From Nitrospira sp. (GTDB lineage: Bacteria > Nitrospirota > Nitrospiria > Nitrospirales > Nitrospiraceae), in NCBI GenBank assembly GCA_024760545.1, contig CP060501.1, forward strand, positions 806,001-870,000: a stretch of DNA of 64,000 nt, in the 5' to 3' direction. This document shows positions 16,138 to 64,000 of the stretch, one piece after another. Every line of letters starts with the position of its first letter. Position 1 is the first letter of the stretch. The notes under the pieces were generated by a model. That model was not told the DNA's origin. It made no database searches and saw nothing but the letters and a program-made list of their open reading frames with translations. The position numbers and the translations under genes are program-made.

Positions 16138-17400
16138 ATGGCGATAAAGCGCATTCCGATCGAGCAGCTGATTCCAGGCATGTACATCATCGAGATGGAT
16201 GTCCCTTGGTATCGAACCCCATTCCTCTCCCATAAAAGAATGATCAAGGATCTCCAGACCATCGAACTCATGAAGCAACATGGGATTAGGATGGTGACGA
16301 TCGATACCAGTAAAGGATGCGATCTTTCATCAGAGGCTCCGGCGAATACACCGCCCACGGCAGACCGGCAACAGGCCACCCCGGACGCATCCACTCCTCC
16401 GAACCCCAGTACCGAACGTCCATCGGAGTCGAAGCAGCCTGACGATCATACCGTGACGATCGTCTATGCACAGGCTCACGAAGCTGTCGAACGCATTTTT
16501 GAGGAGCTTGAACGCGGAGTTCCTCCGACTTTCGAGACTACCAAGGCGATCGTCTCGAATGTGCTAGCACAAATCCTCAGCGACCGCACCGCCATGGCCA
16601 CACAGGTCGCCATTCAGAAAATCAAACAGTTCGATCGGTCATTGACGGCCCATGCGCTGGATACTTGCGTCCTGTCCCTCGTCGTGGCCATTGAAAGTGG
16701 GGTGGAGCAACCGCTGCTCGAACAAATCGGTATCGGCGCGTTACTCCACGACGCAGGGTATGTTCGCCTGCCACGAAATCTTGTTCGCAAACGGGAAGAA
16801 TGCACCGGACAAGACAAGACACTTCTGGAACAGCATTGTAAATTGGGGGTGACGCTTCTCTCCGAGCATCCCGGCATGCCCGAGGACGTCTTGCGCATCG
16901 TCAGGGAGCATCATGAGCGCGCCGATGGAAGCGGATATCCGGCCGGCCTAGGCAACGATCAGATCTCACGCCACGCGCAGATCGTCGGCATCGTCAATTA
17001 CTATGATGGCATGGTCAGTCGACACGGATCTCGTCCCGCCATGATTCCACACGATGCCGTGCGGCAACTCTTCCTAGCCGGCGAAAAAGGACAGTTCGAA
17101 AAATCTCTCGTGGAACTTATGATTCGGAGCATCGGCGTCTACCCGGTCGGAAGTCTGGTCAAGCTGAATACCGGCGAACAGGCAGTCGTAATCGGAGCCA
17201 ACCCTCAGCAACGGCTCAAGCCTCTTGTGAAAATCACGACCGACCCACAAGGGGGATCCTATACGACGCCCCTTGAGGTTGACTTGGCCGTGCCGTCCCC
17301 CGACCGCACGGTGCGAACGGTGCTGCGCGTCCTCGACCCGGCCAAAGAACGCATGAACATCGGTATACATCTGGACCAAACTCTGTCACGAGCCGCTTGA
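16138..17400 (+). CDS. HD-GYP c-di-GMP phosphodiesterase with DUF3391 N-terminus
   Basis: A 420-residue protein. Residues 1-60 resemble DUF3391 (IPIEQLIPGMYIIEMD), then a linker rich in T, P and S, then an HD-GYP domain from about 165 to 310. Ligands visible: H172, H204-D205, H233, H258-H259 in REHHERADGSGYPAG, and D290. The GYP signature is intact. The usual HDIGK motif reads HDAGY, so the conserved lysine is replaced. The family hydrolyses c-di-GMP to pGpG or GMP. ATG at 16138 has CGGAG upstream. It is directly followed by the hybrid kinase with a TGATG junction, so both are probably one transcript from the sigma-28-like promoter. Confidence 0.88.
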   Translation: MAIKRIPIEQLIPGMYIIEMDVPWYRTPFLSHKRMIKDLQTIELMKQHGIRMVTIDTSKGCDLSSEAPANTPPTADRQQATPDASTPPNPSTERPSESKQPDDHTVTIVYAQAHEAVERIFEELERGVPPTFETTKAIVSNVLAQILSDRTAMATQVAIQKIKQFDRSLTAHALDTCVLSLVVAIESGVEQPLLEQIGIGALLHDAGYVRLPRNLVRKREECTGQDKTLLEQHCKLGVTLLSEHPGMPEDVLRIVREHHERADGSGYPAGLGNDQISRHAQIVGIVNYYDGMVSRHGSRPAMIPHDAVRQLFLAGEKGQFEKSLVELMIRSIGVYPVGSLVKLNTGEQAVVIGANPQQRLKPLVKITTDPQGGSYTTPLEVDLAVPSPDRTVRTVLRVLDPAKERMNIGIHLDQTLSRAA

Positions 17401-20285
17401 TGAAACGGTCTGGACGGAAGCGAGGACCATATCAACGTCGAATCGCAGTCGCTCCGCCGGGTGTGTTCCCCATGGTGGATCTATTCGAAGGACTGCCTCT
17501 CGCCTGCATCGTCCTCAACGCCGATCTCACGATTCAGACCGCCAACCGAGAGGGGCTTCGGTTGCTCGGGCCACGGTCAACTTCCCGCATCGCGAAATCA
17601 TTTCCGGCTCTGTGGTCCAGGCTCACCCGATCCGATGCCGCGACGATTACGTCACAGCTGACCGGAGCGCTCAAAGGCCGTCCCGCCTCGGCGACACAAC
17701 AACTCTTTTTGAGAGGGAGGATCGCCCCTGTTCCGGTGGAGTGGACTTGCGCCCCGGCCATGCACGACGGGATGAGTGTTCTGGTTGTCAGTCTGCGAGA
17801 CCTGTCGTATGAAGTGGAACTGGAACACGACCGTGATCGCTTGGCCGCCATTGCCGAGGAAAGCCCCTCTCCGATCATCGAGCTGGATCGGCACGCGAGC
17901 TTGTCGTATGCCAACCCGGCGATGATCTCGTTGCTCTCCCGATTCGGATACAGTCCCGAAGGGTTTCCCAATGTGGTGCCCGGTCGGCTTCCAGACATCG
18001 TGCAGCGCTGTCTCACGACTCGGCACATCCTGCACGGCGAAGAAGTCGTCCTCCCGGGTGCCAGCTTTGTATGGACCTTTTGTCCGGTTCCAATCTTTGG
18101 AGTCGTTCGAGGCTACGCCACCGACATGACGAGCGTCCGTGAGACACAGCAGGCGCTCCAACTGTCGGCCGAGGAGCTTCGCCATAGCAACCAACGCCTC
18201 GACCGGGCTCTCGATGAGGCAAAAGAATCCGCACGGGTCAAAACGGCGTTCCTCGCAACGGTCAGCCACGAACTGCGAACCCCCATGAACGGCGTCATCG
18301 GAATGACGAGTCTGTTGATGGAAACAAACTTGACGCCTGAACAGCAATCCTACGCGGAAACCATCCGGCTGTGCGGTGAGGCGCTGCTTGAGTTGATCAA
18401 CGATGTGCTGGAATGCAGCAAGATCGAGGCGGGTAAGCTGGAGTTGGAGTGCCTCGATTTCAACTTGCGGACGACGGTCGAGCAAGTATTGGCGCAATTT
18501 GCCGAACGGGCCGAGACGAAAGGGCTGGAACTGACCGGACTCGTGCACGCGGCGGTTCCGACCGGGCTCAAAGGCGACCCAGGACGGCTGCGCCAGATAC
18601 TGACCAACCTTGTGGCCAACGCCGTGAAGTTTACCGACAAAGGCGAAGTGACCCTGCAGGCTTACCTCGAGGAAGACCTCACCGATGCTGCCGTCATCCG
18701 TTTTGAAGTCACGGATAGCGGTATCGGCATCAGTCCGGATACACAAGCCAAGCTGTTCCGCCCATTTGTCCAAGCAGACAGCTCGACGACGAGGAAGTAC
18801 GGCGGGACCGGCCTCGGCCTTTCGATTTCCAAGCAACTCGTGGAATTGATGGGAGGACAAATCGGAGTCCGTAGCGTTGCAGGACAGGGAAGCACCTTCT
18901 GGTGCACCGCGCGCCTCTCGAAACAAGCCGGCTCTCCGCATGCTATTCTGCCGACCGGAGATCTTGCCGGAAAGCGAGTCTTGATCGTCGATGACAACGA
19001 ATCGAATCGTTTGATTCTGCACCATTTGGTCTCAGGTTGGGGCATGATTGACGACCTTGCGGAAGACGCCGAAGCAGGCTTGCAACGGATCACGCAGTCA
19101 ACGCAGCGAGGAGAGCCCTACGATCTCGCCATCTTGGATGTGGTCATGCCGGGAAAAGACGGGTTGCAGCTCGCGCGAGAACTGCAATATCACCCTGAAG
19201 GTTCAGGAATACGCCTTGTGGTCATGACCTCAATACTGCAACGGGGCCACGCAGAACAGGCTCGCCAGGCCGGTGCGATGGGCTACCTGCCGAAGCCGGT
19301 CCGCCATGACGAACTGCGCGACTGTCTAAAAACCGTGCTCGGCATACCCGAGAGCCAAGAACAGAGAGACACCCAGACCCTGGCAGTCGTCCCGCAACTC
19401 ATTACGAGGCATACGGTCGCGGAAAATGTCCAGCATCGGCGTGTGCTGGTGGTGGAAGACAATCTCGTGAACCAGAAACTCGCGGTGCGCATGGTGGAGA
19501 AACTTGGATACCAGCCGGACGTCGTCGACAATGGCCAAGAGGCTTTGGTAGCGCTGGCAAAGGGAGACTATGCCGCCATCCTGATGGATTGTCAGATGCC
19601 GATTCTGGATGGATTTGAAACAACCCGAAGCATTCGAGAACGTGAACAGTCGGTCAAGGCTCCTCACACGCTCGATGAGGGCGTCGCTCGTTCAACCGCT
19701 ACGCCGTATGCGATCCCGCATATTCCGATCATCGCGGTGACGGCAAATGCAATGCAAGGGGATCGCGAGCGCTGCTTGGCGGCCGGGATGGACGATTATC
19801 TCTCCAAACCGATCAAATTGAACGAACTGCGGGCTGCTCTTTCACGTTGGATCCCCACATCGTCCGATATGAGTGTCTGTCTATCGGAGGAGCCCCGTTC
19901 TCCCACGAACGACCCCGTACGAGGCATTTTTGATCCCGCGAAGATGTACCAGAATATCGGGCGCGACAACGAATTGTTCGCTCAACTCGTCTGCCTGTTT
20001 CTCGATCGCCACCAAACGATGCTGGCCGACATCAGAACGGCGCTGACCAATGCCGACTCGACCGCCGTTGAGCGGGCGGCGCATTCCTTCAAGGGAACAG
20101 CGGGAAATCTATGCGCCTCCGAGGTGGGACTCACCGCCGGCCGCCTCGAAGCAGTCGGGCGTCTGAATACACTTCATGATGCGCCACCAGTCTACGCGCA
20201 ACTTGAGCTCGAAGTCGCTCGGCTCGTCCGTGTGCTTGAATCCTACCGGCAGGGATACCAGCCTCTCCCCCGAGCAGCCGCGTAA
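17400..20285 (+). CDS. Hybrid histidine kinase: PAS-HisKA-HATPase-REC-REC-HPt
   Basis: A 961-residue soluble-looking protein (no clear membrane segment). PAS-like regions span about 25-135 and 145-245; HisKA has phospho-acceptor H290 in VSHELRTPMNGVIGM; the HATPase has NLVANAVKF, DSGIGI and GGTGLGLSI; two receiver domains follow (VLIVDDNESN with LDVVMPGKDG, and VLVVEDNLVNQ with MDCQMPILDG); the C-terminal HPt has AHSFKGTAGNL. Both receivers keep aspartate and lysine. The layout is the BarA/GacS-type tripartite relay but without the periplasmic sensor. ATG at 17400 overlaps the HD-GYP stop by one base. Its signal is unknown; its PAS domains point to an internal cue. Confidence 0.9.
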   Translation: MKRSGRKRGPYQRRIAVAPPGVFPMVDLFEGLPLACIVLNADLTIQTANREGLRLLGPRSTSRIAKSFPALWSRLTRSDAATITSQLTGALKGRPASATQQLFLRGRIAPVPVEWTCAPAMHDGMSVLVVSLRDLSYEVELEHDRDRLAAIAEESPSPIIELDRHASLSYANPAMISLLSRFGYSPEGFPNVVPGRLPDIVQRCLTTRHILHGEEVVLPGASFVWTFCPVPIFGVVRGYATDMTSVRETQQALQLSAEELRHSNQRLDRALDEAKESARVKTAFLATVSHELRTPMNGVIGMTSLLMETNLTPEQQSYAETIRLCGEALLELINDVLECSKIEAGKLELECLDFNLRTTVEQVLAQFAERAETKGLELTGLVHAAVPTGLKGDPGRLRQILTNLVANAVKFTDKGEVTLQAYLEEDLTDAAVIRFEVTDSGIGISPDTQAKLFRPFVQADSSTTRKYGGTGLGLSISKQLVELMGGQIGVRSVAGQGSTFWCTARLSKQAGSPHAILPTGDLAGKRVLIVDDNESNRLILHHLVSGWGMIDDLAEDAEAGLQRITQSTQRGEPYDLAILDVVMPGKDGLQLARELQYHPEGSGIRLVVMTSILQRGHAEQARQAGAMGYLPKPVRHDELRDCLKTVLGIPESQEQRDTQTLAVVPQLITRHTVAENVQHRRVLVVEDNLVNQKLAVRMVEKLGYQPDVVDNGQEALVALAKGDYAAILMDCQMPILDGFETTRSIREREQSVKAPHTLDEGVARSTATPYAIPHIPIIAVTANAMQGDRERCLAAGMDDYLSKPIKLNELRAALSRWIPTSSDMSVCLSEEPRSPTNDPVRGIFDPAKMYQNIGRDNELFAQLVCLFLDRHQTMLADIRTALTNADSTAVERAAHSFKGTAGNLCASEVGLTAGRLEAVGRLNTLHDAPPVYAQLELEVARLVRVLESYRQGYQPLPRAAA

Positions 20286-42260: not shown

Positions 42261-43235
42261 CTAGCTCAATACTTTGGTTACGCGGCAAGCGTGATTGCCT
42301 TTGAAGATCCCTGGACTGCCCTGAATTTTGTGATGGCCCTCTATATAACAGTCGAGGAGGTCACCCGGACGCTGGTCAAGCAAGATGACGTCTCCCGGGG
42401 TAAAATTCATGACATCTTTCACCGTCACCGTCGCCGTTCCCAGCCGCACCGCAATAGGGAGGGGACAGTCCTGCAGCCGGTCACGAAATCGCTGATTCCA
42501 CTCTCCGTTCTGATCGACATGATCGGAGACGAGGCCGGAATAGAGCTTCTCTTTGATCGGTTCAAGCATGCTATAGGGATACACGATGTACAGCTCGCGG
42601 GCGGTTTCTCCCAGAATGACTTGGAGAGTCACGACCACCACGATTTCCGAGGCAGTGACCACCATCGCGAACTGAGGGTTACTTTCAGAGCGGAGGTACT
42701 CCACCTTGACCGGCACGACTGCCTGCCAAGCTTTTTCGAGGTCGACGAGCGCTTGCAGCAACAATCGTTTAATGATACGCAGCTGGACGGACGTGAAGTC
42801 CCGTCCCTCAGGCTTCACATGAGTCTGTCCCTTTCCGCCGAAGAAATAATCCACGACCAGATACACCAGAAACGCATCCATCACGAAGAGGGCGTTCCCC
42901 CGTAACGGATGCATATGAAACACGTTCAGCGACGACGGCATCGGAACTTTCTTCAAGAACTCGCCGAACTTGACGACTTGCGTTCCGACCACGGCGAAAT
43001 CGACGGCCTCCCGAAACATGCTGGTCCAGATAATCGATTGGCGGCGGATAAACCGGTCGTTGACCATCTCCATGGTCGGCATCCGCCCGCGGATGATCCG
43101 CTCCTGATTGAACAGATCGTATCGCGTCACACCTTTTGCATCTTGTGTATTGTCCTTCGGAGCGGTTTCTACCTCTCCTGAAACGACTCCCTTGAGGAGC
43201 GCATCGATTTCATCCTGTGACAGGATCTTTTCCAT
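42261..43235 (-). CDS. fliM: FliM, motor switch protein
   Basis: 324 residues. N-terminal EKILSQDEIDALLKGVVSG is the CheY-P binding peptide, then the CheC-like middle domain (DRFIRRQSIIWTSMFREAV, GRDFTSVQLRIIKRLL) and the SpoA-like C-terminus. Phospho-CheY binding here switches rotation. CheY genes are not in the window. Confidence 0.97.
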   Translation of the reverse strand: MEKILSQDEIDALLKGVVSGEVETAPKDNTQDAKGVTRYDLFNQERIIRGRMPTMEMVNDRFIRRQSIIWTSMFREAVDFAVVGTQVVKFGEFLKKVPMPSSLNVFHMHPLRGNALFVMDAFLVYLVVDYFFGGKGQTHVKPEGRDFTSVQLRIIKRLLLQALVDLEKAWQAVVPVKVEYLRSESNPQFAMVVTASEIVVVVTLQVILGETARELYIVYPYSMLEPIKEKLYSGLVSDHVDQNGEWNQRFRDRLQDCPLPIAVRLGTATVTVKDVMNFTPGDVILLDQRPGDLLDCYIEGHHKIQGSPGIFKGNHACRVTKVLS

Positions 43236-48927: not shown

Positions 48928-49953
48928 CTATTTAGCGATTTCCGAAGTTCCGATGCCTGCGTTCTCCGGATCGCCCATGAACTTGTTGGCGATCATCTGA
49001 GTCGCCTTGAGCGGATTCAGCGCCAGATCAAGCCACCTAGCTGCCGCAGATTTGGCAACCTCTCCATAGCGGAACCGATAGCCGAGCCTGGCTAGTTCCT
49101 TTTTGTGGAAGGTCCACAATCCCTTGTCGGAATGATCAAATATTTTGGCGCCCAGGAATGCGTAATACTCCCGCCATCGTTGCCTGAAACATTGTTCAAA
49201 TTCCTCGTCGCTCAAATAGGCCCGTCCATACTTGGTCAAGTGTTCAAGCATCCCCAAATAGTCGGTGCCAAAGCGCTTACAAAAATGACTTTGCGCCGCC
49301 ACATGCACTCTCGTGAACGTCAATACCTGATGGACAAAGCCGAAATCTCGACTCCTGAGAATATCGAAACACGCCTCAATATCGCAGTGGAAGTTGGCTT
49401 CGTTGTAAAACGTGGGACGCTTTCTCACTTCATCGGCGCCAATCAACGTCGACGTCGATCCCCCGAACACGTACGGGTCGTCCAGGAAAGCATGTCGGCC
49501 GATCTCTCGGCCGGCCATGATACTCGTCTCATACGGTGGAGTTCCATCCCAGAACATAAAATCATTGCGCAACCTATGTGCGCCGACAATGGCGACTGTC
49601 GGATGAGCTTCGGCAAGTGCAACCATGCGCTCGATACACTCCTGAAACAGCCAGTCATCTGCATCTACCAGTTTGCAGTATTTCGCCGCTGGGGACATCA
49701 GCCGAAATGCCACATTATGGTTCTGAAGGCTGCTGACGAATTTCGAGTTGTTATGGATACGAATCCTCGTATCCTTGCTGGCGTAGCTTTGAGCAATTTC
49801 AAGAGTTCGATCGGTACTGCAATTATTGACAATGCAATACTCCCAATTGTGGTAGGTCTGCGCCAACACGCTTTCGATGCATTCGGCCAGGTATTGCTCG
49901 CCGTTGTAGACGGGCGTGAGGACACTCACGAACGGCTGTGATTGTGGCTTCAT
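48928..49953 (-). CDS. Glycosyltransferase family 2
   Basis: 341 residues. GT2 core: VSVLTPVYNGEQYLAECIESVLAQTYHNWEYCIVNNCSTDRT, and the acidic motif LVDADDW near residue 98. C-terminal 100 residues are helical. It transfers a sugar from a nucleotide donor on the cytosolic side. It is last of the second glycan group, 61 bases after the PIG-L gene. Donor and acceptor unknown. Confidence 0.85.
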   Translation of the reverse strand: MKPQSQPFVSVLTPVYNGEQYLAECIESVLAQTYHNWEYCIVNNCSTDRTLEIAQSYASKDTRIRIHNNSKFVSSLQNHNVAFRLMSPAAKYCKLVDADDWLFQECIERMVALAEAHPTVAIVGAHRLRNDFMFWDGTPPYETSIMAGREIGRHAFLDDPYVFGGSTSTLIGADEVRKRPTFYNEANFHCDIEACFDILRSRDFGFVHQVLTFTRVHVAAQSHFCKRFGTDYLGMLEHLTKYGRAYLSDEEFEQCFRQRWREYYAFLGAKIFDHSDKGLWTFHKKELARLGYRFRYGEVAKSAAARWLDLALNPLKATQMIANKFMGDPENAGIGTSEIAK

Positions 49954-50014
49954 CCGCTTCGCCTCGAGTGATTATCGAATCGCTAAGCTCACAGAACGGA
50001 ACGGAAGTCGCGCC

Positions 50015-50671
50015 TTAGCCGAGGACGATTTTACGACCGTAAAAAGCCTCCGCATAGTTGCTTGGCGCATTCGATTCGATACCGCGAAGACGCAATATGG
50101 AATGGAAGGTCTCTCGGGAAAACCATTGCCTGCTTCGCTGGCTGGGAAATTCATCCATAAGATAACCGACCTTTTCGTTGCATATGGACTGAGTCAAAGG
50201 AACAAAGACATTCGGCTGCCCGAGATCTCCGTCATACTTCGGAATTTCAAATTCGAGTATCTGATGATGACGAAAGGTATTCCACGTCAGGTCAGATACC
50301 ACTCGATGATCCTGATGCAGGTCGTGCCTATAGTGCGTGAAGATCAAATCAGGGCTTACCCGCTTTTTAAGACGTTCAAAGAAACCCTTGATCTCTTCAC
50401 CCCGGTAGGGAAAGAAGCTTTCTTTGAATTGTTTCGTGACAACGGTCTTCTTCCGCGCGTTTCCGAGAAATCGCCTTGCGCTGGACAGCGCCTCACGCCT
50501 CCGCTGCCCCGCCGCGCTCAATACCACCCACGTGACGTGGCAATTCTCGCAGGTGCTCAGGAGACGAAGGATCGTGCCACCACAACCAATTTCGATGTCG
50601 TCGGAGTGCGCCCCCAGACACAACACCGACAGCGCCTCGTTCCGGGGACAAAGGGCGTTCAATTGGAGCAT
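50015..50671 (-). CDS. PIG-L family deacetylase
   Basis: 218 residues from ATG at 50671. LCLGAHSDDIEIGCGGTILRL contains the metal-binding AHxDDxE motif, and HYRHDLHQDHRVVSDL supplies the third ligand. The family removes acetyl from GlcNAc-type sugars. Upstream in-frame codons to 50797 lack an ATG; a ribosome-site-like GGAG lies 16 bases upstream, so the start is uncertain. Position in a sugar cluster suggests an N-acetyl sugar substrate. Confidence 0.8.
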   Translation of the reverse strand: MLQLNALCPRNEALSVLCLGAHSDDIEIGCGGTILRLLSTCENCHVTWVVLSAAGQRRREALSSARRFLGNARKKTVVTKQFKESFFPYRGEEIKGFFERLKKRVSPDLIFTHYRHDLHQDHRVVSDLTWNTFRHHQILEFEIPKYDGDLGQPNVFVPLTQSICNEKVGYLMDEFPSQRSRQWFSRETFHSILRLRGIESNAPSNYAEAFYGRKIVLG

Positions 50672-50904
50672 GTCGAGATCGTATCCGCTCCATGAGCACG
50701 CCCCCAACCAAGACTCGGTGTCACTCGCTGCATCATTTTGCTCCTCGTTAAGTAAATTCCTGACATCAGCAGGATCGTCGCCGCACAATGGATGCAATAA
50801 GAATTGAGAGCGAGTTCCTTATGATCGTCTCGAAATCATGACAGCCGACACCGACGTTGACCGCGGCACAATCTCTGACCATTCGGTGGAGTGCAGACAT
50901 CCGC

Positions 50905-51702
50905 CTAATCCGGTTTCTTAGCAAAGTGATTCTTCCATATCATCCATGGGCAATTTCCACGTGCCTCCATGCGATCGAATGCGATCTTGTCCTTGAACGT
51001 ATCCATGCATTGCCAAAAACCGTCCCACTGGAATGCCGCAAGTCCGCCTTCGTCGACAAGACGCCTAAACGGCTTCTCCACCAACTCTTCACCGTCATGT
51101 ATGTATTTGAATATCTCGGGCTTCATCACGAAAAACCCGGCGTTAATCCAAAATTCTTGATCGCCCATTGCACCGATACTGGTGACGATACCGTCACGCC
51201 CGGTCTGCACGGCATGAACACTTTGCCGACTTCGCACTGCAACGAGACTCGCAATTACGTTCCGCGACTTAAATTCGGTGAGTTGCCGGTCGAGCGGAAG
51301 ATCAGTCAGCGCGTCCGCATAATTGGCGAGAAACGCCTCTTCGTCTTCAACAAACTTGCGCACATGAAGAAGCCGTTGCCCGATGTTGTTGTGCAGGCCG
51401 GTATCCACGAAGGTGATTTTCCAGTCGGCGAGATCTCGCGAGTGCAGTTCTCTGCGGCCATCCTTGCCGTACATGGTAAAGTCATTCGTCAGCTCTTCAT
51501 CGTAATCAAGAAAATACCTTCGTATGAGATCTCCCCGATAACCCAAACACAGAATGAACTCATTGTGGCCATAGTGAGCATAGTAGCGCATGAGATGCCA
51601 GACGATCGGTCGAGCCCCGATATTGACCAGCGGCTTCGGGATCGTCTCCGAGTGTTCCCGGAGTCGTGTTCCCATCCCACCACAAAACAGCACCACTTTC
51701 AT
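50905..51702 (-). CDS. Sugar-1-phosphate nucleotidyltransferase, RfbF-like
   Basis: 265 residues. MKVVLFCGGMGTRLREHSETIPKPLVNIGARPIVWHLMRYYAHYG is the glucose-1-phosphate cytidylyltransferase pattern; YFLDYDEELTNDF and GFFVMKPEIFKYI, GLAAFQWDGFWQCMDTFKDK are also typical. RfbF activates glucose to CDP-glucose. The usual partner RfbG dehydratase is not in the window. The other neighbours are a C-methyltransferase upstream and PIG-L downstream. The donor nucleotide is inferred, not proven. Confidence 0.85.
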   Translation of the reverse strand: MKVVLFCGGMGTRLREHSETIPKPLVNIGARPIVWHLMRYYAHYGHNEFILCLGYRGDLIRRYFLDYDEELTNDFTMYGKDGRRELHSRDLADWKITFVDTGLHNNIGQRLLHVRKFVEDEEAFLANYADALTDLPLDRQLTEFKSRNVIASLVAVRSRQSVHAVQTGRDGIVTSIGAMGDQEFWINAGFFVMKPEIFKYIHDGEELVEKPFRRLVDEGGLAAFQWDGFWQCMDTFKDKIAFDRMEARGNCPWMIWKNHFAKKPD

Positions 51703-51882
51703 CGTGACCCACTTCTGAATTGTCGCCCGATGGCTTTATGACGATCGGCAATCCCCATCAAAGTCACAATCCTTCAAGAACACTTCATGAATGGACGAAG
51801 ATGACTATCCGTACCTTCTGCCCTAAACGGCAGCGTCAGTTCGTTGCCCCTCAGCCACACATTACTGCCTAAATGTTTTGGC

Positions 51883-53127
51883 CTAAGAGTATACTCGAAC
51901 TTCTGGGATCGGCACAACAAATTGTCCGCCCCACTCCCGAATCCAGCATAGCTGCTCCATAATTTCGTCTCGTATATTCCACGGAAGAATCAACACGTAA
52001 TCCGGTTTTGTTTCTCGAATCTTGCCGGGATGATGGATGGGGATATGCGTTCCCGGCAGAACTTTCCCTTGCTTATACGGATTACGGTCGACAGTGTAGT
52101 CAACAAAATCCGTTCTGATCCCGCAGTAGTTCAGAAGCGTGTTACCTTTTCCCGGCGCTCCATAGCCAACAACCGTTTTCCCCTTACGCTTTGCCTGGAT
52201 CAAGAACTCCAGGAGCTTCCGTTTCGTTTCCTTGACCTGCTCTGAAAATGCCGCATATGTATCCAGCTGATCGAGCGCGACCGTCTTCTCGTGGTCTATC
52301 AGCGCCCGGTATCGAGTCGTCGTTTCATTGCCGGCATACTCCCCATGGCAGCCGTAGATCCGCAACGATCCCCCATGCGTCGGCAATTCCTCGACATCGA
52401 ACAGTCGCACCCCGTGAGCGGCAAAGATTCGCTCAGCGGTCATCAGTGTGAAGTAGAAAAAGTGTTCATGATAAATCGTATCAAACTGGTTTTCCTGCAT
52501 AAGCTTCATCAAATGAGGGAATTCGATCGTCATGACCCCGGCAGGAGCTAGGAGAATTTTTATCCCGGCCACAAAATCGTTGATGTCAGGGACCTGAGCC
52601 AACACGTTGTTCCCAACGATCAAGTCGGCGGTCTTCCCCTCTGCTCTCAACAATTGAGCCGTATCTTTCCCGAAGAACTTTATCAGCGTTGGAATATTCT
52701 TCTGCCGCGCCACTTCCCCCACATTTGCGGCGGGCTCAATCCCCAATACCGGAATGCCGGCCGCGACAAAATGCTGCAGTAAGTAGCCGTCGTTACTGGC
52801 CAGTTCCACCACGAAGCTTTCCGGCGAGAGGCCAAAGCGTCGACAAATCATTTCTTGGTACCGCTTGGCATGTTGCACCCAACTGTCCGAGTAGGAAGAA
52901 AAATACGCATATTCGGTAAAAATCTCGTCCGGCTTGACATACTCGTGCAGCTGCACCAAAAAGCATCGGTCGCATACCAATACATGGAGCGGATAGAACG
53001 GCTCCATGCTGTTAATCCGCTCCGGAGGCACGAAGCTCTCACAGAGCGGGTGCATGCCAAGATCCACGAATGTCATGCCTAACGGCGCATGACAGAACAA
53101 ACAGCCGCGGACATCCGTCATCTTCAC
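51883..53127 (-). CDS. SAM-dependent sugar C-methyltransferase, TylC3/NovU-like
   Basis: 414 residues. Zinc ribbon C9-x2-C12 and C52-x2-C55 at the N-terminus, SAM motif VVELASNDGYLLQHF near 107, YHEHFFYFTL near 219 (the family catalytic His/Tyr region), and the C-terminal GYGAPGKGNTLLNYC domain. It methylates a C3 position of a keto-sugar, as in deoxysugar synthesis. GTG at 53127 has GGGAG nine bases upstream; ATG at 53121 is an alternative. Begins the second glycan group. Confidence 0.88.
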   Translation of the reverse strand: MKMTDVRGCLFCHAPLGMTFVDLGMHPLCESFVPPERINSMEPFYPLHVLVCDRCFLVQLHEYVKPDEIFTEYAYFSSYSDSWVQHAKRYQEMICRRFGLSPESFVVELASNDGYLLQHFVAAGIPVLGIEPAANVGEVARQKNIPTLIKFFGKDTAQLLRAEGKTADLIVGNNVLAQVPDINDFVAGIKILLAPAGVMTIEFPHLMKLMQENQFDTIYHEHFFYFTLMTAERIFAAHGVRLFDVEELPTHGGSLRIYGCHGEYAGNETTTRYRALIDHEKTVALDQLDTYAAFSEQVKETKRKLLEFLIQAKRKGKTVVGYGAPGKGNTLLNYCGIRTDFVDYTVDRNPYKQGKVLPGTHIPIHHPGKIRETKPDYVLILPWNIRDEIMEQLCWIREWGGQFVVPIPEVRVYS

Positions 53128-53385: not shown

Positions 53386-54144
53386 CTACGGTGTTTGCGC
53401 CAACAGCTGTTCGGTGAGTTTTGCGGCCCGGTCCGCTTTGACCTGGGCCAGGATCGCTCCGGCGGTTTTGGATTTGACCATCCGGAGAATCTCGATCGCT
53501 TTGCGGTCCGGCATACGTTCCAGGCGTGCGGCGGCGTCCTCTGACGCCATGGCTTCATAGATTTTGGCGAGTTGCATCCGCTGATCCTGTCCCGCACGGT
53601 CCTTCTCTGCGCGGATTTTGGCGAGTTGAGCCGGTGAACGGTCGTCTTTGCCCTGCGCGCTCTGAATTCGCTTTTCCAAGGCTTCGTTCTGGTCCAAGAG
53701 TTGCTCGACCTGACTCCTCACGATCATGAGCCGTTCTTCGTTTTCCCGGATCGCGTCCTCGCGCCGGTCCAAATCGCGCTTTCGCTGTTCCAGCATCTCG
53801 ATCACTTCGCGGGGCAGATTGATTGCCGGCCCCTGCGTCACGGGGGGTGCCAACAGCTTGGCATCGTCGCGGGATTCGCCTTCGGTGCTTTCCCCCTCTT
53901 GCATAGGCTGTGGCTGACTTTGTTTCACTGAACTTTGCGGCAGAGGCAGCGTCTTTGGTTTGGGTCCGGATGAGGCTTGTCCCAATTGCACCATCACCCA
54001 CAGGAGGATGGTCGAGCCGATGATCCCGCCGACCATCGTCCACAGCGACGACCGCCGGTTCCTCCTCGGCATATTCACAGCAAGATGTCCAATGCCGCCG
54101 AGACGAAATGGATTTACCCTGACCTGCGTAGATCGTACCTTCAT
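53386..54144 (-). CDS. MotE-like/FliJ-linked membrane coiled-coil protein
   Basis: 252 residues. Short basic N-terminus, one membrane helix (LWTMVGGIIGSTILLWVMVQLG, about 34-55), P/Q-rich linker, coiled coil (LPREVIEMLEQRKRDLDRREDAIRENEERLMIVRSQVEQLLDQNEALEKRI), and MgtE-N-like tail (IYEAMASEDAAARLERMPDRKAIEILRMVKSKTAGAILAQV). This is the layout of MotE, a chaperone for MotC in alphaproteobacteria, and related proteins in flagellar operons of other phyla. ATG at 54144 overlaps the fliJ stop as ATGA. Last gene of the flgB operon. Confidence 0.8.
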   Translation of the reverse strand: MKVRSTQVRVNPFRLGGIGHLAVNMPRRNRRSSLWTMVGGIIGSTILLWVMVQLGQASSGPKPKTLPLPQSSVKQSQPQPMQEGESTEGESRDDAKLLAPPVTQGPAINLPREVIEMLEQRKRDLDRREDAIRENEERLMIVRSQVEQLLDQNEALEKRIQSAQGKDDRSPAQLAKIRAEKDRAGQDQRMQLAKIYEAMASEDAAARLERMPDRKAIEILRMVKSKTAGAILAQVKADRAAKLTEQLLAQTP

Positions 54145-54581
54145 GACCTATTCTCGCTTCCGCTGGAATACCGGCGGCTCGCGGCATCATCCGTGATCCG
54201 CTGCTCTTGACGCCCCATGTCCGCCCGCTTCGCTTCCTGGCGCTTTTCCGCCACCAGCTCAAGCAGCTTGCACTCCTGACTGGCTTCGACAAGGAGAGAC
54301 TTGGTATGCTGCCATGCCGAAGCGGCCTGGTTGATCTCGCTACGCGCGTGCCGCAGTGCGGTTTGTTGGGAATCCATGCGTGCTTGCCATTCCAACAAGG
54401 CTTCGATCGTCAGCCCTTGCTTCGTGTGTCGTTCATAGTCCGCGGAATCCGTTTGAATCTGAGCTTCAATGTTGCGATGGCGTTCCTCGCTGCGGGCGAG
54501 AGTTTGGGTGATCTGCGCCAATTCCATCATCAAGGCCTCTACGGTCTGGGCGCGCAGCTTCTGCAACGAATCGAGACTCAT
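54141..54581 (-). CDS. fliJ: FliJ, export apparatus stalk protein
   Basis: 146 residues, almost wholly helical coiled coil (LQKLRAQTVEALMMELAQITQTLARSEERHRNIEAQIQ, QQTALRHARSEINQAASAWQHTKSLLVEASQECKLLELVAEKRQEAKRADMGRQEQR). FliJ is the central stalk in the FliI hexamer and links to FlhA. It overlaps fliI by four bases, as expected. Low sequence conservation, so position matters. Confidence 0.85.
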   Translation of the reverse strand: MSLDSLQKLRAQTVEALMMELAQITQTLARSEERHRNIEAQIQTDSADYERHTKQGLTIEALLEWQARMDSQQTALRHARSEINQAASAWQHTKSLLVEASQECKLLELVAEKRQEAKRADMGRQEQRITDDAASRRYSSGSENRS

Positions 54582-55885
54582 GCCGTCTTCTGGGCCAGCG
54601 CCTCAAGCTGCTGCACCGACGCGGCTAAACTCGAGGGCTCCTCAATGTCCTGCCTCAAATACGAGTTGATCGCCTCTTGCGCCTGAACGGCGCGGTCGAG
54701 TCCGGCATTCATCCCCGACTTGTAGGCTCCCAACAGTACCAGATCTTCGGATTGGCGATACCGGGCCACTAATTCGAGAAGACGCCTGGCGGCATCGTAC
54801 TGCGGTCGCCCGACGATATCCCGCATCACACGGCTGGCGCTCTGGAGAAGATCGATCGCAGGAAAATGATTGCGCGCGGCCAGCGCGCGTGACAGGACGA
54901 TATGGCCGTCCAAGATCGAACGGACCGAATCCGCGATCGGATCACTGAGATCATCGCCATCCACCAGCACGGTATACAATCCCGTAATGGTTCCCGGTCC
55001 CGGTCCGGTTCCGACGCGTTCCAGGAGCTTGGGCAACAGCGCGAACACAGACGGCGTATACCCTTTGGTCGTCGGAGGTTCGCCGATCGCCAGCCCGACT
55101 TCTCGCTGGCCGTAGGCCAATCTGGTCAGCGAATCCATCAACAGCAAGACCTGTTTCCCGGCGTCACGAAAATACTCCGCAATGGTCGTGGCGACCAGCG
55201 CCGCGCGTATCCGCACGAGCGGGGCTTGGTCGGAAGTCGCCACGACGACGACCGAGCGTCCGAGTGCCTCCGCGCCGAGATCGCGTTCCAAGAACTCGTT
55301 GACCTCACGGCCTCGTTCTCCTATGAGGGCGATGACGTTGACCTCCGCTTTCGTATAGCGGCTGATCATCCCCAACAACACACTCTTTCCGACCCCCGAT
55401 CCGGAAAAAATACCCATTTTCTGCCCGCGCCCGCACGTCAGAAAGCCGTTGATCGCCCGAACGCCGAGATCGAGGGGAACCTGGACGCGGGCTCGTTGAA
55501 GCGGATTCGGCGCACCGGCATGAAGCGGATAGCGTTCTTCGGTCCTCAGCGGCCCTTTGCCGTCCATCGGGTTTCCACAACCATCGAGCACCCTTCCCAA
55601 CAAACCCGGTCCGACGGCGAGATCCGCCACGTGGCCCGTCATCGTAATTCGGCTGCCCGGCCCGATGCCCTGCATGTCGCCCAGCGGCATCAGCAAGACA
55701 CGATCCCCACGGAATCCCACCACCTCCGCCGCGATCGGTCCCCCACAGGCTTCTCTTGTAATCCGGCACAGTTCTCCGACGGTCGTCATCGGCCCATACC
55801 CTTCCACAACGATCCCGACAGCTTGGGCAACTCTTCCGGAGATTTCGATCGGCTCGACCTGCTCGATGAGCTGACTAAGACTCAT
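54578..55885 (-). CDS. fliI: FliI, flagellar export ATPase
   Basis: 435 residues. Walker A GSGVGKSVLLGM near 170, Walker B QVLLLMDSLTRLAYGQREVGLAIGEPP, and the export ATPase features of the F1-beta-like fold. FliI forms a hexamer beneath the gate and is controlled by FliH. ATG at 55885 overlaps the REC-FliH gene by 11 bases. Confidence 0.97.
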   Translation of the reverse strand: MSLSQLIEQVEPIEISGRVAQAVGIVVEGYGPMTTVGELCRITREACGGPIAAEVVGFRGDRVLLMPLGDMQGIGPGSRITMTGHVADLAVGPGLLGRVLDGCGNPMDGKGPLRTEERYPLHAGAPNPLQRARVQVPLDLGVRAINGFLTCGRGQKMGIFSGSGVGKSVLLGMISRYTKAEVNVIALIGERGREVNEFLERDLGAEALGRSVVVVATSDQAPLVRIRAALVATTIAEYFRDAGKQVLLLMDSLTRLAYGQREVGLAIGEPPTTKGYTPSVFALLPKLLERVGTGPGPGTITGLYTVLVDGDDLSDPIADSVRSILDGHIVLSRALAARNHFPAIDLLQSASRVMRDIVGRPQYDAARRLLELVARYRQSEDLVLLGAYKSGMNAGLDRAVQAQEAINSYLRQDIEEPSSLAASVQQLEALAQKTA

Positions 55886-56900
55886 GATGAGGCCTGTTCT
55901 TCAAGACATCGCCCAAACGGAACAGTTGGGTATCGAGAGAAGCATCGACTTGTCGAGTTGCGGTGTGCAGCAGGCAGCTTCCCCGTGGAAGAGACGGCAC
56001 CGGTTCGATGGTGATCGTCAACGCAATATCCTGCTGCCCCGTGAGTTCCGTCCGAACAGCCTCGAGCACCGCTGCATCCGCCGGATGGACCCGTATCACG
56101 ACGCCGCCTGACTCTCGAATGACGCCCAACGCGGCTTTGACCTGCACAACGATCTGTTCCCGGCGCGACTCGGCCGACTCGTGAAGAATCTTGGACACAA
56201 TCTGAAGCGCGAGTGCGATGACTTCGTCGTCGACCGTCTGTCGGAGCAGTGACCGGGCGGCATCGAACTTTCTGACGGCATCGGTCAGCACCGTGATATC
56301 GTGCCGGCGCTGCTCTTCCGTCTGTCGCCGGCCGTCCGCCAGACCTCGCTCGTATTCCGTCGGATCGTCCTCTCTTCGGAGCGCCTCTCCGTCTCCGAAG
56401 GTCTGGAAGGGTGCGCTCTGCAGACGTATCGCGCCGGATCGCACGGCGGCATGTTTCAAGACCGTATTTTCGGTGCGCAGCCGATGGAGTTCCAGTAGGC
56501 GGCGCACGGTTGCCAGGACGACTTCGTTTTGAAAGGGCTTCATCAAAAAATCGGTGGCGCCGGCCTTCATCGCGCGGACGGCGAGTTCCACCGTCGCCGC
56601 TCCGGTCATCGCCACGCCGATAATCCGATTGTCGATCCGCTGTGCTTCTTCGAGCACTGCAATCCCGTCTTGATCCGGCAGTAAGACATCGACGATCAGC
56701 AACGCCGGCGCCATCTGCTTCACCATCGATAGCGCCTCCTGGCCCGAACCGGAGACTCGAATGGGCACTCGCTCCGGCTTGAACAGTTCGACGAACAAAT
56801 TGCGAACTCCCTCGTCATCGTCAACGACTAGGATGCTGCCCTGAAGTCGTGGAACCCCTCGTTCGCGCGCGGTCATCCACGGGATGGTCATACCCGTCAC
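55875..56900 (-). CDS. fliH: Receiver-domain FliH fusion (REC-FliH), export ATPase regulator
   Basis: 341 residues from GTG at 56900, which has AGGAGA seven bases upstream and overlaps the fliG stop by one base. Residues 22-125 are a complete CheY-like receiver: D27-D28-D29 in ILVVDDDEG, phospho-acceptor D71 in IVDVLLPDQDG, T99 in AMTG, K121 in LMKPF. Residues 180-341 are FliH: YERGLADGRRQ, helical VDDEVIALALQIVSKILHESAESRREQIVVQV, then VIRVHPADAAVLEAVRTEL and PRGSCLLHTATRQVDASLDTQLFRLGDVL. Trp8 in IPWMT resembles the N-terminal LPWKT of Salmonella FliH that docks on FliN. No kinase partner is adjacent. FliH controls FliI and anchors it to the C-ring. Confidence 0.92.
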   Translation of the reverse strand: MTGMTIPWMTARERGVPRLQGSILVVDDDEGVRNLFVELFKPERVPIRVSGSGQEALSMVKQMAPALLIVDVLLPDQDGIAVLEEAQRIDNRIIGVAMTGAATVELAVRAMKAGATDFLMKPFQNEVVLATVRRLLELHRLRTENTVLKHAAVRSGAIRLQSAPFQTFGDGEALRREDDPTEYERGLADGRRQTEEQRRHDITVLTDAVRKFDAARSLLRQTVDDEVIALALQIVSKILHESAESRREQIVVQVKAALGVIRESGGVVIRVHPADAAVLEAVRTELTGQQDIALTITIEPVPSLPRGSCLLHTATRQVDASLDTQLFRLGDVLKNRPHHES

Positions 56901-57892
56901 TACAGCATCTCCTCTCCCGGTCCGGCGATGACGATGCGGCTTTCCTCCTCCAGCTTGCGGCATACTTTAAGGATATTCTGCTGAGCCTTCTCGATATCGG
57001 ATACCTTGACCGGTCCCTTGGACTCCATATCGTCCTTCAACATTTCCGAAGCACGGCTCGACATGTTCTTGAAGAATTTCTCCTTGACCTCCGGATTGGC
57101 GCCGCGGAGGGCCAACGGAAGGTCTTCCTTGCTGATCTCCTTCATCAATTCCTGCATGCCGCGGTCGTCGACTTTGATAAGGTCGTCGAACACGAACATG
57201 AGCGCCCGGATGGCGTCGGCCAGCGGCTGGCTCTTCTCGGCGATCCTGACCATAATGCCGCCTTCGTTGGCCTTGTCCATTCTTGTCAGAATGTCGGCCA
57301 TCACTTCAGGCCCTCCGATGCTCTGCGATCCCATTCCTTTACTGGTCAATAACGCCTCTTGCATACTTTGGCTGAGTTCCTCCAAGACCTCCGGCTGCAC
57401 TTCCTCCATGGTCGCGAGCCGAAGCGCCACGTCCCCGCGCATCGATTCCGGAAGCCCGGCCAGCACCTGCCCGGCTTGTTCACTTTCAAGGTGGGCGAGC
57501 ACCACCGCCACCGTCTGGGCATGCTCGATTCTCAGCATTTGAACCAGGCTCCTCACATCAACCCATTTCAGCGCTTCCAGGCCGGGATAGGTTTTTCGGG
57601 CCATCGATTCGATGATCCGTGCCGCCTTTTCCGGACCCAACGCCTTATTGAGGACGGTCCTGATAAACTCTTTTCCATGGAACTGGACTTGTCCCGTCGC
57701 GCTCTGGGCGCGAAAGTCCGAGATGACCGCATCTTCCTCGTCTCGCGAGATTTGCGCCGTGCCGTCCATGAAGCTTCCCAACTTTTTGATTTCTTTGGGG
57801 TCGAGTTGCTTCAAGACCTGGGCAGCCGCCTCTTCCCCGATGGCGCGAAGAAGAATGGCTGCTTTCTGCTCACCCGTCAGGTTCTTCGTCAT
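56900..57892 (-). CDS. fliG: FliG, motor switch protein
   Basis: 330 residues. N-terminal TKNLTGEQKAAILLRAIGEEAAAQVLKQLDPKEIKKLG, middle EHAQTVAVVLAHLESEQAGQVLAGLPESMRGDVALRLATME and C-terminal torque helix region (MFVFDDLIKVDDRGMQELMKEISKEDLPLALRGANPEVKEKFFKNMSSRASEMLKDDME) with the charged residues facing MotA. Nine bases after fliF. Confidence 0.97.
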   Translation of the reverse strand: MTKNLTGEQKAAILLRAIGEEAAAQVLKQLDPKEIKKLGSFMDGTAQISRDEEDAVISDFRAQSATGQVQFHGKEFIRTVLNKALGPEKAARIIESMARKTYPGLEALKWVDVRSLVQMLRIEHAQTVAVVLAHLESEQAGQVLAGLPESMRGDVALRLATMEEVQPEVLEELSQSMQEALLTSKGMGSQSIGGPEVMADILTRMDKANEGGIMVRIAEKSQPLADAIRALMFVFDDLIKVDDRGMQELMKEISKEDLPLALRGANPEVKEKFFKNMSSRASEMLKDDMESKGPVKVSDIEKAQQNILKVCRKLEEESRIVIAGPGEEML

Positions 57893-60949: not shown

Positions 60950-62362
60950 TCATGGCGTGATGATCGACAAGGGCTGCTCGCTCTCCCGATACTCCCGCAG
61001 CTTGTTTCGTAACGTGCGGATGCTGATGCCCAATTCTTTCGCGGCGTGTGTGCGATTGTCTTTCACACGCGCCAGCGTCTTAAAGATCAATTCCCGTTCC
61101 ATCTCCCACAGAGATCCGTTGGCCGGCTGTTGCGGACGGACGGGCTGCGCCGCCGTCTCATCGCTTCGCTCCGGAGGACAATGATCGGGAAGGATGGGAC
61201 TCTGCCCGGCCAACAGCACCGCCCGTTCCATCACATTCTCCAACTCGCGCACGTTTCCCTTCCACGCCAGCCGTTGCAAGTGCGCGATGGCGCTCTCCGA
61301 CAAGGACGGCGGAGTCAGGCCGTTCCTCGTGGCCGATTGGTTCACAAAATGCCGCGCGAGGAGAGGAATATCGGCGATGCGCTCGCGTAGCGGCGGGACG
61401 GTGATGGGAAATACGTTCAAACGATAGTAGAGATCCTCGCGAAAGCGGCCTTGTTCGACCTCGCGATAGAGCGCCCGATTCGTCGTTGCGATCACGCGGA
61501 TGTTGACGGGAACCGGATCGCGGCCTCCGATCCGATCCACCTCGCGTTCTTGCAAGACACGCAGCAGCTTCGCTTGGAGGGTCAGGTTCATTTCGCTGAT
61601 TTCGTCCAAGAGCAGCGTTCCGGAATGCGCCATCTCAAACTTCCCGATTTTTCTGATCAAGGCGCCGGTAAACGCGCCGCGCTCGTGGCCGAAGAGTTCG
61701 CTCTCGAGTAGTCCGTCCGGCAATGCGGCACAATTGACCGCAATGAACGGTCGATGCGCCCGTGGGCTCCTATTGTGGATGAACCGAGCCAGGAGCTCTT
61801 TTCCCGTACCGCTCTCTCCATGGATCAGCACGGTCGCTTGACTGGAAGCCACCCCTTCGATTGTGCTTAAGAGCCTGACCATGCCCGGGTCTTGAGTTAA
61901 TATCGCCCGGGTGTCCGTCGGTTGGGTCGGCAGGTCTGTTCCCGCCCCTTCTTCCCGTCCCACTTTGAGGTTCACGACGACTCGCTCCAGCAAGTCCATT
62001 GAAAACGGTTTCAAGAGGTACTCGCTGGCGCCCAGCTTCATCGCCTCGACCGCCGTTTCGATCGTGCCATACGCCGTCATGAGCACGATCGTGACCTGCG
62101 GAGCGCGCGACTTGATCTCTTTGATCAAGTCCAGGCCGTTCAGGCGCGGCATCCTGAGGTCGGTCAGCACCATCCAAGGACGAAACCGGACGATCCGTTC
62201 CATGGCATCGACGCCGTCGGACGCCCCTTGCACGGAATACCCAAGCCGCCTGACGGTTTCCATCAGCGCTGCTCGCATCGACGGGTCATCGTCCACAATC
62301 AGAACGCGTTCGTTTTCCTCGGCACTCTCCGGAAGAGGGCTGTTTTTATCGCGATCACTCAT
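60950..62362 (-). CDS. fleR: FleR/FlrC-like sigma-54 response regulator
   Basis: 470 residues: receiver (DDD 24-26, D68, K118), AAA+ domain with Walker A GESGTGKE (182-189), sigma-54 contact loop GAFTGA (229-234), DE at 253-254, and a Fis-type HTH at the C-terminus (TLARVKDNRTHAAKELGISIRTLRNKLREYRESEQP). It activates sigma-54 promoters for rod, hook and basal-body genes after phosphorylation by FleS. ATG at 62362 has GGAGG upstream. Next to flgB, diverging from nothing. Confidence 0.95.
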   Translation of the reverse strand: MSDRDKNSPLPESAEENERVLIVDDDPSMRAALMETVRRLGYSVQGASDGVDAMERIVRFRPWMVLTDLRMPRLNGLDLIKEIKSRAPQVTIVLMTAYGTIETAVEAMKLGASEYLLKPFSMDLLERVVVNLKVGREEGAGTDLPTQPTDTRAILTQDPGMVRLLSTIEGVASSQATVLIHGESGTGKELLARFIHNRSPRAHRPFIAVNCAALPDGLLESELFGHERGAFTGALIRKIGKFEMAHSGTLLLDEISEMNLTLQAKLLRVLQEREVDRIGGRDPVPVNIRVIATTNRALYREVEQGRFREDLYYRLNVFPITVPPLRERIADIPLLARHFVNQSATRNGLTPPSLSESAIAHLQRLAWKGNVRELENVMERAVLLAGQSPILPDHCPPERSDETAAQPVRPQQPANGSLWEMERELIFKTLARVKDNRTHAAKELGISIRTLRNKLREYRESEQPLSIITP

Positions 62363-62378
62363 GAGACCAATCCTCCAG

Positions 62379-63656
62379 TCACATCACATTGCTTTCCACA
62401 GGGTCCGTTACATCGGATGCATTCCCGTTCCGCGCCATGACCGGACCCTCACTCTGATTCGAGGACGCCGATGGGTGCGGCAGAATGATCGAACAGGAGG
62501 TGCCTTGCCCGACTGTGCTTTCGACATCGATCCGTCCTTGATGGGCTTCGATGATTGAATGGACGATAGCAAGGCCGAGGCCGGTTCCCTCGTCTTTCGT
62601 CGTGAAGAAGGGATCAAATATGCGCGAGCGAAGAGCCGGGTCGATGCCGGTACCGGAATCGCGCACGGTCAGCCGAACGGCGGGCATGCCGAGTGTGTGC
62701 GCCGGTTCTTGTTGAAGACCGACCACCAAGATGCCTCCGTTAGGCATCGCCTGCACGGCGTTCACGACCAGATTCAAGACGACCTGTTTCAACTGCCCCT
62801 CATGGCACCAGATCGACGGGGTCTCTCGATCGATGTCGACTCGAATCTCCACCGGCGCTTTGGCGATCGTATGGGCGGCCAGCTTGATGGAATTACGGAT
62901 CAACGGGTCAACCGGGTACCAGCCACGAGCCATGCGTACCGGTGTTGTGTACAGCAAGAGATTGGCCAACAAGCGGTCCATCGATTGGACAGCCTGCGAA
63001 ATCTGTTCGGCATAGCGTTTGGCAGACGGGTGCTCATCGAGATCGCGCTGGAGCATGGATGCAAAGAGCTCCACGCTGCCCAACGGATTTCTGATTTCAT
63101 GTGCGATCCGTCCGATGAGCTCCCCCATGGCCGCCAGTCGTTCCTTGCGCTGTAATTGCTCTTCAAGCTGATACACCCGAGTGATGTCCTGAATCAGGAC
63201 GAGGTGACCGGAGGCATCTCCGGAATCGTTGTGCAACGGTACCCGACTGATTGAGACCAACGCCTGCCCGATGCGTTGCGGCCGATCGCACACGCTGAGG
63301 CCCGCACGTGCCAAGACGTCGGATGCGCGACGATTCCGCAGTTCGGCATCCGTCGCCCCGAGCAACGTTCCGGCGGCTCGGTTGCTCCGGCTGATGATCT
63401 CGGAATCGTCCACCACCAAGACCCCGGTCGATAAGGACTCGAGGATGCCGTCCAGATGCACGCGCATGGCCTCGTTCTGACCGAGCTGCCGGCGCAGCGC
63501 CTCGTTGCTGTGAGCCAATTCCACATCCATCTGCTCCACACGCGCCGTGAGCGCGTGATACGATTGCTGCAGGGTATGGGCGGCTTCATCAAAACTTTTG
63601 AATGCCGCGCAAAGCAGTTCCCGTTCCTCAGGACGCCCTGTGGTCGCGCTGGTCAT
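62379..63656 (-). CDS. fleS: FleS/FlrB-like sensor histidine kinase
   Basis: 425 residues. Coiled N-terminus, PAS domain (about 65-165), HisKA with H186 in GRIAHEIRNPLGSVELF, HATPase with NLVVNAVQAMPNGG, DSGTGI and GTGLGLAI. No membrane segment, as in FleS/FlrB. It phosphorylates FleR. ATG at 63656 overlaps the TPR gene stop as ATGA. The 16-base gap before fleR suggests one operon. Confidence 0.95.
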   Translation of the reverse strand: MTSATTGRPEERELLCAAFKSFDEAAHTLQQSYHALTARVEQMDVELAHSNEALRRQLGQNEAMRVHLDGILESLSTGVLVVDDSEIISRSNRAAGTLLGATDAELRNRRASDVLARAGLSVCDRPQRIGQALVSISRVPLHNDSGDASGHLVLIQDITRVYQLEEQLQRKERLAAMGELIGRIAHEIRNPLGSVELFASMLQRDLDEHPSAKRYAEQISQAVQSMDRLLANLLLYTTPVRMARGWYPVDPLIRNSIKLAAHTIAKAPVEIRVDIDRETPSIWCHEGQLKQVVLNLVVNAVQAMPNGGILVVGLQQEPAHTLGMPAVRLTVRDSGTGIDPALRSRIFDPFFTTKDEGTGLGLAIVHSIIEAHQGRIDVESTVGQGTSCSIILPHPSASSNQSEGPVMARNGNASDVTDPVESNVM

Positions 63657-64000
63657 AATCCCTCCGCATTCGCCGAACGACGGACGACTTGCAAGCTGGC
63701 TTTCAGCGATGCCGCCAACCGGTTGACCGTCTGATCACCGGCCACATCGAGCTCCGCCAGCGCGACGGTGGCGCGATCGTACTGCTTCAACGCCGTCCAA
63801 TGCTGGGCGGTTTGGAGATGCGCCCATTCGGCTTGGCTCGCCTTCGGTTTCTTTTCCAACACCGCCAGATAAGCCGTGATGGCTCGTTCATGCCGATTCA
63901 ATCGAGACAAGGTATCCGCGTAAGCCAGGAGTGTATCGGGCGATTTCCCCGCGCCGGCTTTGAACGCTTCTTCGTACGCCAGCGCGGACTCGTCGAGCTT
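63653..64000 (-). CDS. TPR-repeat protein, 5' end cut by window
   Basis: 115 residues are visible at the C-terminus; the start lies beyond 64000. The repeats (DTLLAYADTLSRLNRHERAITAYLAVLEKKPK, AEWAHLQTAQHWTALKQYDRATVALAEL) have the TPR helix-turn-helix pattern. It is translationally coupled to fleS, so it may belong with motility control. The function is not known. Confidence 0.75.
   Translation of the reverse strand, partial: KLDESALAYEEAFKAGAGKSPDTLLAYADTLSRLNRHERAITAYLAVLEKKPKASQAEWAHLQTAQHWTALKQYDRATVALAELDVAGDQTVNRLAASLKASLQVVRRSANAEGL

Follow-up and report, generated by a model that had tools for sequence, protein, structure and literature searches.

REC-FliH, a conserved variant of the flagellar export protein FliH with an NtrC-type receiver domain in Nitrospira and its relatives

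Flagellar export machines contain FliH as a conserved component, and the Nitrospira group is important for nitrification. In the window, by which we mean the whole stretch of 64,000 nucleotides of Nitrospira sp. DNA analyzed here, the gene in the fliH position encodes a protein, here called REC-FliH, in which a two-component receiver domain appears to precede FliH. The locus raises the question of whether this is a genuine fusion, where its receiver came from, and whether it could place the export ATPase complex under phosphorylation control. The gene is flanked by fliF and fliG upstream and by fliI and fliJ downstream (Pfam), and its surroundings and parts are as follows.

56900..57892, minus strand: fliG (Pfam FliG_N, FliG_M, FliG_C)
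55875..56900, minus strand: REC-FliH gene, GTG start, 341 aa, single open frame
56505..56837, minus strand: NtrC-type receiver, residues 22-132 (Pfam Response_reg, AlphaFold2)
56391..56465, minus strand: segment corresponding to the N terminus of ordinary FliH and presumed to dock to the C-ring, residues ~146-170 (profile-profile alignment, two-block motif)
55920..56297, minus strand: C-terminal half of FliH, residues 202-327 (PF02108)
54578..55885, minus strand: fliI, export ATPase (Pfam ATP-synt_ab, T3SS_ATPase_C)

The original prediction, made from the sequence alone, held that a complete receiver and a genuine FliH half are translated as one protein from a gene with its own ribosome site and a one-base overlap with fliG. 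The translation signals were found as described, with AGGAG upstream of the GTG codon, which shares one base with the stop codon of fliG (TAGTG). A profile search matched both halves above the Pfam cut-offs, Response_reg at residues 23-132 (E=1.1e-21) and FliH (PF02108; E=1.5e-17, 64.1 bits against a cut-off of 24.1), and no second PF02108 match was found elsewhere in the genome. These were the only two Pfam domains in the protein, which carries neither an AAA+ sigma-54 domain nor a DNA-binding domain. Among the best 25 of 103 NCBIfam models listed, none reached its own cut-off for REC-FliH (NtrX 95.2 against 600; FliH models 62.3 against 180 and 58.5 against 148.9). A profile of the FliH half built from 24 relatives matched the FliH chain 5b0o_E (E=7.8e-9), which by sequence comparison points to the FliI-binding C-terminal domain, 5b0o being a FliI complex.

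The receiver of the window protein contains D27, D28, D29, D71, T99 and K121, the full set of a canonical phospho-receiver, and is thus intact in this species. Its fold was predicted with confidence by AlphaFold2, run with 36 relatives (ten-residue means of 89-98 over residues 21-140; mean pLDDT of 82.3 for the whole protein), and a Foldseek search with the model matched receivers from E=1.0e-10. A single predicted helix (residues 125-154) joins the receiver to the N-terminal FliH segment, followed by a stretch of low confidence (156-177), a long helix (182-245) and the C-terminal domain of FliH; with a pTM of 0.44, the mutual placement of the domains is not given by the model.

The fusion was found to be widespread in the family. 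FliH is encoded by 68 of 79 genomes of the genus, 129 of 175 of the family and 220 of 395 in a sample of the phylum. One fliH locus sequence per genome was taken, in 91 of the 129 family genomes with FliH, and 86 of these, from Nitrospira and relatives, carry the fused gene, two of the fused loci being cut by contig ends (L096 within the receiver, L080 within FliH). The other five (G132, G270, G204, G455 and G456) encode an unfused FliH. In the remaining 38 family genomes the FliH open frames measure 338-352 aa, which is the size of the fused genes. One genome (G428) gave two FliH matches, on C33 and C47, each in a 349-aa frame, and one of them was read. Outside the family, none of the 46 distinct FliH loci from other Nitrospirota families was fused. 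In a second scan of named genomes, which overlaps the first genome set and of which the best 80 of 94 matches were kept (79 loci), all 53 loci titled Nitrospira or Nitrospiraceae were fused, among them that of N. moscoviensis NSP M-1 and those of entries labelled N. defluvii and N. lenta, while none of the 26 other FliH loci was, phyla other than Nitrospirota being lightly sampled among them. The closest named relative among the matches listed was Nitrospira sp. BO4, with 99% identity in the FliH half.

An assembly error, raised at the outset as a possible flaw, or a chance open frame would not recur: because the same architecture is present in 86 genomes, and again at all 53 Nitrospira and Nitrospiraceae loci of the overlapping second collection, chance and frameshift are excluded and we give this explanation a negligible probability. 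With a single open frame, both domains above the Pfam cut-offs and the same fusion at 86 loci, REC-FliH is one protein, an NtrC-type receiver followed by FliH, and it is a real, conserved variant of FliH. In a FliI+FliG tree of 51 taxa the fused genomes sampled formed one clade with an ultrafast bootstrap of 100, and the unfused family members a separate one (100), the grouping of the two clades having a support of only 54. The simplest reading is one gain of the fusion, with no loss seen.

The source of the receiver was sought among the receivers of the same genome. The regulatory genes upstream in the flagellar locus are as follows.

60950..62362, minus strand: REC-AAA+-Fis response regulator, FleR-type by position (Pfam)
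62379..63656, minus strand: PAS histidine kinase, FleS-type by position, candidate phosphoryl donor (Pfam PAS, HisKA, HATPase_c)
63653..64000, minus strand: 3' part of a TPR-repeat protein that continues past the window edge (L171:7653-9833)
~65952-67466, outside the window, same strand as the kinase: 504-aa REC-AAA+-Fis sigma-54 regulator (L171:9952-11466)

For the FleR-type and FleS-type genes, no NCBIfam model scored above its cut-off among the matches listed. The 504-aa regulator heads the flagellar locus about 10 kb upstream of REC-FliH, the TPR gene lying between it and the kinase. The order of 504-aa regulator, kinase and FleR-type regulator on one strand was conserved in all 19 genomes examined (13 fused, 2 unfused family members and 4 of the next family), and in the 15 family genomes the TPR gene separates regulator and kinase, with no match to it in the 4 next-family genomes. 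The TPR-repeat gene overlaps the kinase gene, and its product might serve as a sensor partner for the kinase.

The genome contains 135 PF00072 matches. When it was searched with the REC-FliH receiver alone, the nearest was the receiver of the 504-aa regulator (41% identity, E=3.7e-28), the next following at E=6.4e-19. Two trees were built, for which a midpoint root and a FleR-type root were chosen, respectively. The REC-FliH receivers formed one group in both (support 96 and 82), and joined those of the 504-aa regulator with support of 93 and 99 in the midpoint-rooted tree; in the FleR-type-rooted tree they fell within the group of the family's copies of the 504-aa regulator (82). Pairwise identity to the 504-aa regulator was 36-45% (8 pairs) and to the FleR-type regulator 27-31% (3 pairs). 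Since the receivers of the two regulators are themselves 38% identical (one genome), identity alone would not settle the source. The FleR-type regulator at 60950-62362 was rejected as the donor on its 27-31% identity together with its separate branch. Judged by sequence comparison, the receiver and its outgoing helix most likely derive from the 504-aa sigma-54 regulator, and the simplest history would be a single copying of that regulator's receiver with the helix, ending near ...LRTEN. In four lineages (L173, L262, L264 and L270) the receiver of the 504-aa regulator lies nearer to the REC-FliH receivers than the species tree predicts, a grouping that may possibly reflect gene conversion or a long-branch effect.

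A fusion of two genes already adjacent was not supported as the origin, as a general receiver profile matched only 1 of the 46 non-family loci (28 of which span at most ~1.5 kb either side of FliH), and at this one, L158, the receiver match lay ~3.4 kb from FliH. Passages of a published study describe homologues of FleQ and FleSR in Nitrospira strain ND1 and N. defluvii, and FliH does not occur in its main text (PMC5767232). Our guess would be that the FleQ of that study is the 504-aa regulator.

A receiver in front of FliH raises the question of how the protein could still dock to the flagellar base. In Salmonella, residues 1-18 of FliH bind FliM-FliN, according to passages of PMC4443714, and the original prediction proposed that Trp8, shortly before the receiver, retains the FliN-docking role. 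This was not borne out as a general feature, as the residue is unconserved. In a second genome of this species the residue is Gly, and across 29 other loci of the genus it is variously A, G, T, K or E. A Trp anywhere within the 20 residues before the receiver occurs at just 6 of 85 loci, and its position varies among them. These are the window locus (L001), L077, L078 and the basal L069, L054 and L074; as the last three have a Trp, an old Trp site before the receiver may have been lost later.

A different candidate for docking was found behind the receiver. Unfused FliH proteins of other Nitrospirota often start with a sequence like SKILK...IRIESVTMDTF (L059; 20 of 46 loci by pattern), and in the fused proteins TVLK...IRLQSAPFQTF or a similar sequence immediately follows the receiver. 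A two-block motif was trained on the 20 unfused non-family proteins, with set and blocks chosen by eye and pattern and three of the sequences (L151, L057 and L155) probably out of register. Its best site lay at the same offset in all 27 fused representatives and reached p<0.05 by shuffling in 23 of these related sequences (missed in L087, L105, L075 and L077), compared to none of 16 linkers from the genome's other response regulators (lowest p 0.050 and 0.060). Furthermore, a local profile-profile alignment of the 27 fused sequences from residue 126 onwards with the 20 unfused ones, trimmed to the pattern, started unforced at residue 146, on the motif, with a probability of 99.9; this comparison covered the 20 of 46 non-family loci that contain the pattern, many of the other 26 having a different N terminus. 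A plain HMM of the unfused N-terminal motif counts against the motif when taken alone, since it located the motif correctly in just two fused proteins (L074 and L054), with poor E-values, and misplaced it in several others. The motif test and the profile-profile alignment together suggest that the receiver precedes an otherwise complete FliH, with the presumed docking peptide located where the receiver's outgoing helix ends. By analogy with ordinary FliH, this N-terminal segment, which here follows the receiver, is a more likely means of docking than Trp8. As this segment is internal and not at the extreme N terminus, we refer to REC-FliH as a variant FliH.

The residues expected of a phosphorylation switch are retained to a high degree. 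D71 is invariant at all 86 loci (codons 34 GAC and 52 GAT), as is K121 (45 AAA and 41 AAG), and T99 is Thr at 82 loci, Ser at 3 and Ala at 1, compared to a mean column identity of 56% in an alignment of 36 relatives. D27 is Glu at two loci. D28 is retained in the window protein, but of the 85 loci that cover this residue 14 have A, H or G in its place (L012, L016, L019, L025, L030, L065, L082, L083, L084, L091, L100, L104, L114 and L118). All of these keep D71 and K121, and the losses amount to 3 parsimony steps on 84 tips. By analogy with CheY and PhoB we take D28 to be the main metal ligand of the Mg site, with D13 as its counterpart in CheY. Its loss should then impair metal binding, so that the receivers of those lineages may be altered as switches. 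The invariance of D71 and K121 makes phosphorylation control of REC-FliH plausible, as far as can be judged from the sequences. Alternatively, the receiver could be a non-signalling structural module, a pseudo-receiver serving dimerization or spacing, in which D71 and K121 are kept for fold and dimer stability. The loss of D28 at 14 loci and the exchanges of D27 and T99 would fit such a role, whereas pseudo-receivers usually lose the phosphoryl acceptor and here D71 and K121 stand invariant against the 56% column mean, with T99 being Thr or Ser at 85 of 86 loci. We therefore regard a purely structural role as possible, though rather unlikely.

The reading that we favor, with a probability of roughly 0.5, is that REC-FliH is a phosphorylation-responsive FliH, possibly served by a local kinase, that controls the docking or geometry of FliH-FliI. 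Asp71 would be phosphorylated by a histidine kinase, most simply that of the locus (62379-63656), and phosphorylation would alter the receiver dimer, as in NtrC-type regulators. Through the helix, this would alter how far the two docking peptides of a FliH dimer are exposed or how they are spaced, and with it the docking of FliH-FliI at the FliM-FliN ring, so that export could be adjusted without new transcription. The loss of D28 at 14 loci and the divergence of the receiver from that of the 504-aa regulator over the 8 pairs count against this reading. A more far-reaching version, which we consider doubtful, is that a single flagellar kinase acts on the sigma-54 regulators and, owing to its copied receiver, on REC-FliH as well; this would give transcription and export a shared signal and make docked REC-FliH the kinase's sensor of an export ATPase in place.

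The flow of information might also be the reverse, with the receiver turning the export complex into an acceptor or sink of the kinase, so that the arrival of FliH-FliI at the basal body signals the readiness of the export machine to the sigma-54 regulators. The receiver indeed has its closest relative in a regulator of this locus, and the stretch from fliH to the 504-aa regulator encodes one kinase and three receivers. Moreover, passages of PMC7064773 describe that FleSR and FlrBC are active only with the export core, FliF and FliG, the authors leaving open indirect monitoring via an unidentified factor; REC-FliH could be such a monitoring link in the fused clade. Against this, the binding of the kinase to REC-FliH is hypothetical, and the five unfused family genomes do without the fusion, the two examined having the same regulator, TPR and kinase genes; we consider a reverse flow improbable. 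Still less probable is that the receiver acts as a second CheY that binds the N terminus of FliM, thereby coupling FliH with the C-ring or the state of rotation. FliM (42261-43235) retains the N-terminal sequence MEKILSQDEIDALL, presumably the CheY-binding motif, but the receiver is of NtrC type and not of CheY type according to NCBIfam (best 25 of 103 models), to the search of its own genome and to the trees, and two short stand-alone receiver frames (128 and 131 aa) are found at contig positions 792064 and 795810.

A hybrid kinase with PAS, HisKA, HATPase, receiver (three stretches) and Hpt domains is encoded at 17397-20285 (plus strand) and could be another phosphoryl donor. It adjoins a DUF3391-HD protein (16138-17400, plus strand), both being encoded on the opposite strand, to the left of the flagellar genes.

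When compared to known systems, REC-FliH shares with FliH (PF02108; 5b0o) the C-terminal half, the single copy between fliG and fliI and a recognizable N-terminal segment, but it differs in the additional receiver at its N terminus, in the internal position of the FliH segment and in having no conserved Trp. Its receiver and outgoing helix are related to those of NtrC-type sigma-54 regulators such as the 504-aa protein, while the AAA+ and Fis-type DNA-binding domains of these regulators are missing, and the receiver is closer to the NtrC type than to CheY. A signalling domain on a basal-body protein is also known from FliY, in which FliN is fused to a CheC-type phosphatase; that domain is a different one, however, and FliY is part of the C-ring, whereas REC-FliH belongs to the export ATPase complex. 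To our knowledge, no FliH with a built-in signalling domain is known. The FlgSR, FlrBC and FleSR checkpoints link a two-component system to the assembly of export apparatus or rotor, and genes with the same domains are present in this locus; these checkpoints are described as transcriptional, with no receiver on an export protein mentioned in the passages concerned (PMC7064773). The view that no system of this design had been described agrees with our literature search, in which no description of REC-FliH was found among the matches listed, judged from titles and the starts of abstracts, with preprints (bioRxiv) and most subscription papers outside its scope. REC-FliH thus appears to be undescribed.

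If phosphorylation does change docking or export, REC-FliH would place the export ATPase complex directly under the post-translational control of a two-component receiver, which suggests that the building of the flagellum could be controlled at the machine itself besides gene expression. It would also provide a natural handle on the question of how an assembled export apparatus is recognized by flagellar kinases. Its likely origin is the spread of a signalling domain from gene control to a machine part of the same locus.

Two further observations concern other genes of the window. Between the flagellar genes, at 48928-53127 (minus strand), lies a block of glycosyltransferase-, sugar-nucleotide- and methyltransferase-like genes, recognized from their translations only, which possibly serves flagellar glycosylation. 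The gene after fliJ (53386-54144, minus strand) gave a weak MgtE_N match, at 22.6 against a cut-off of 25.9, and we assume that it is perhaps MotE-like.
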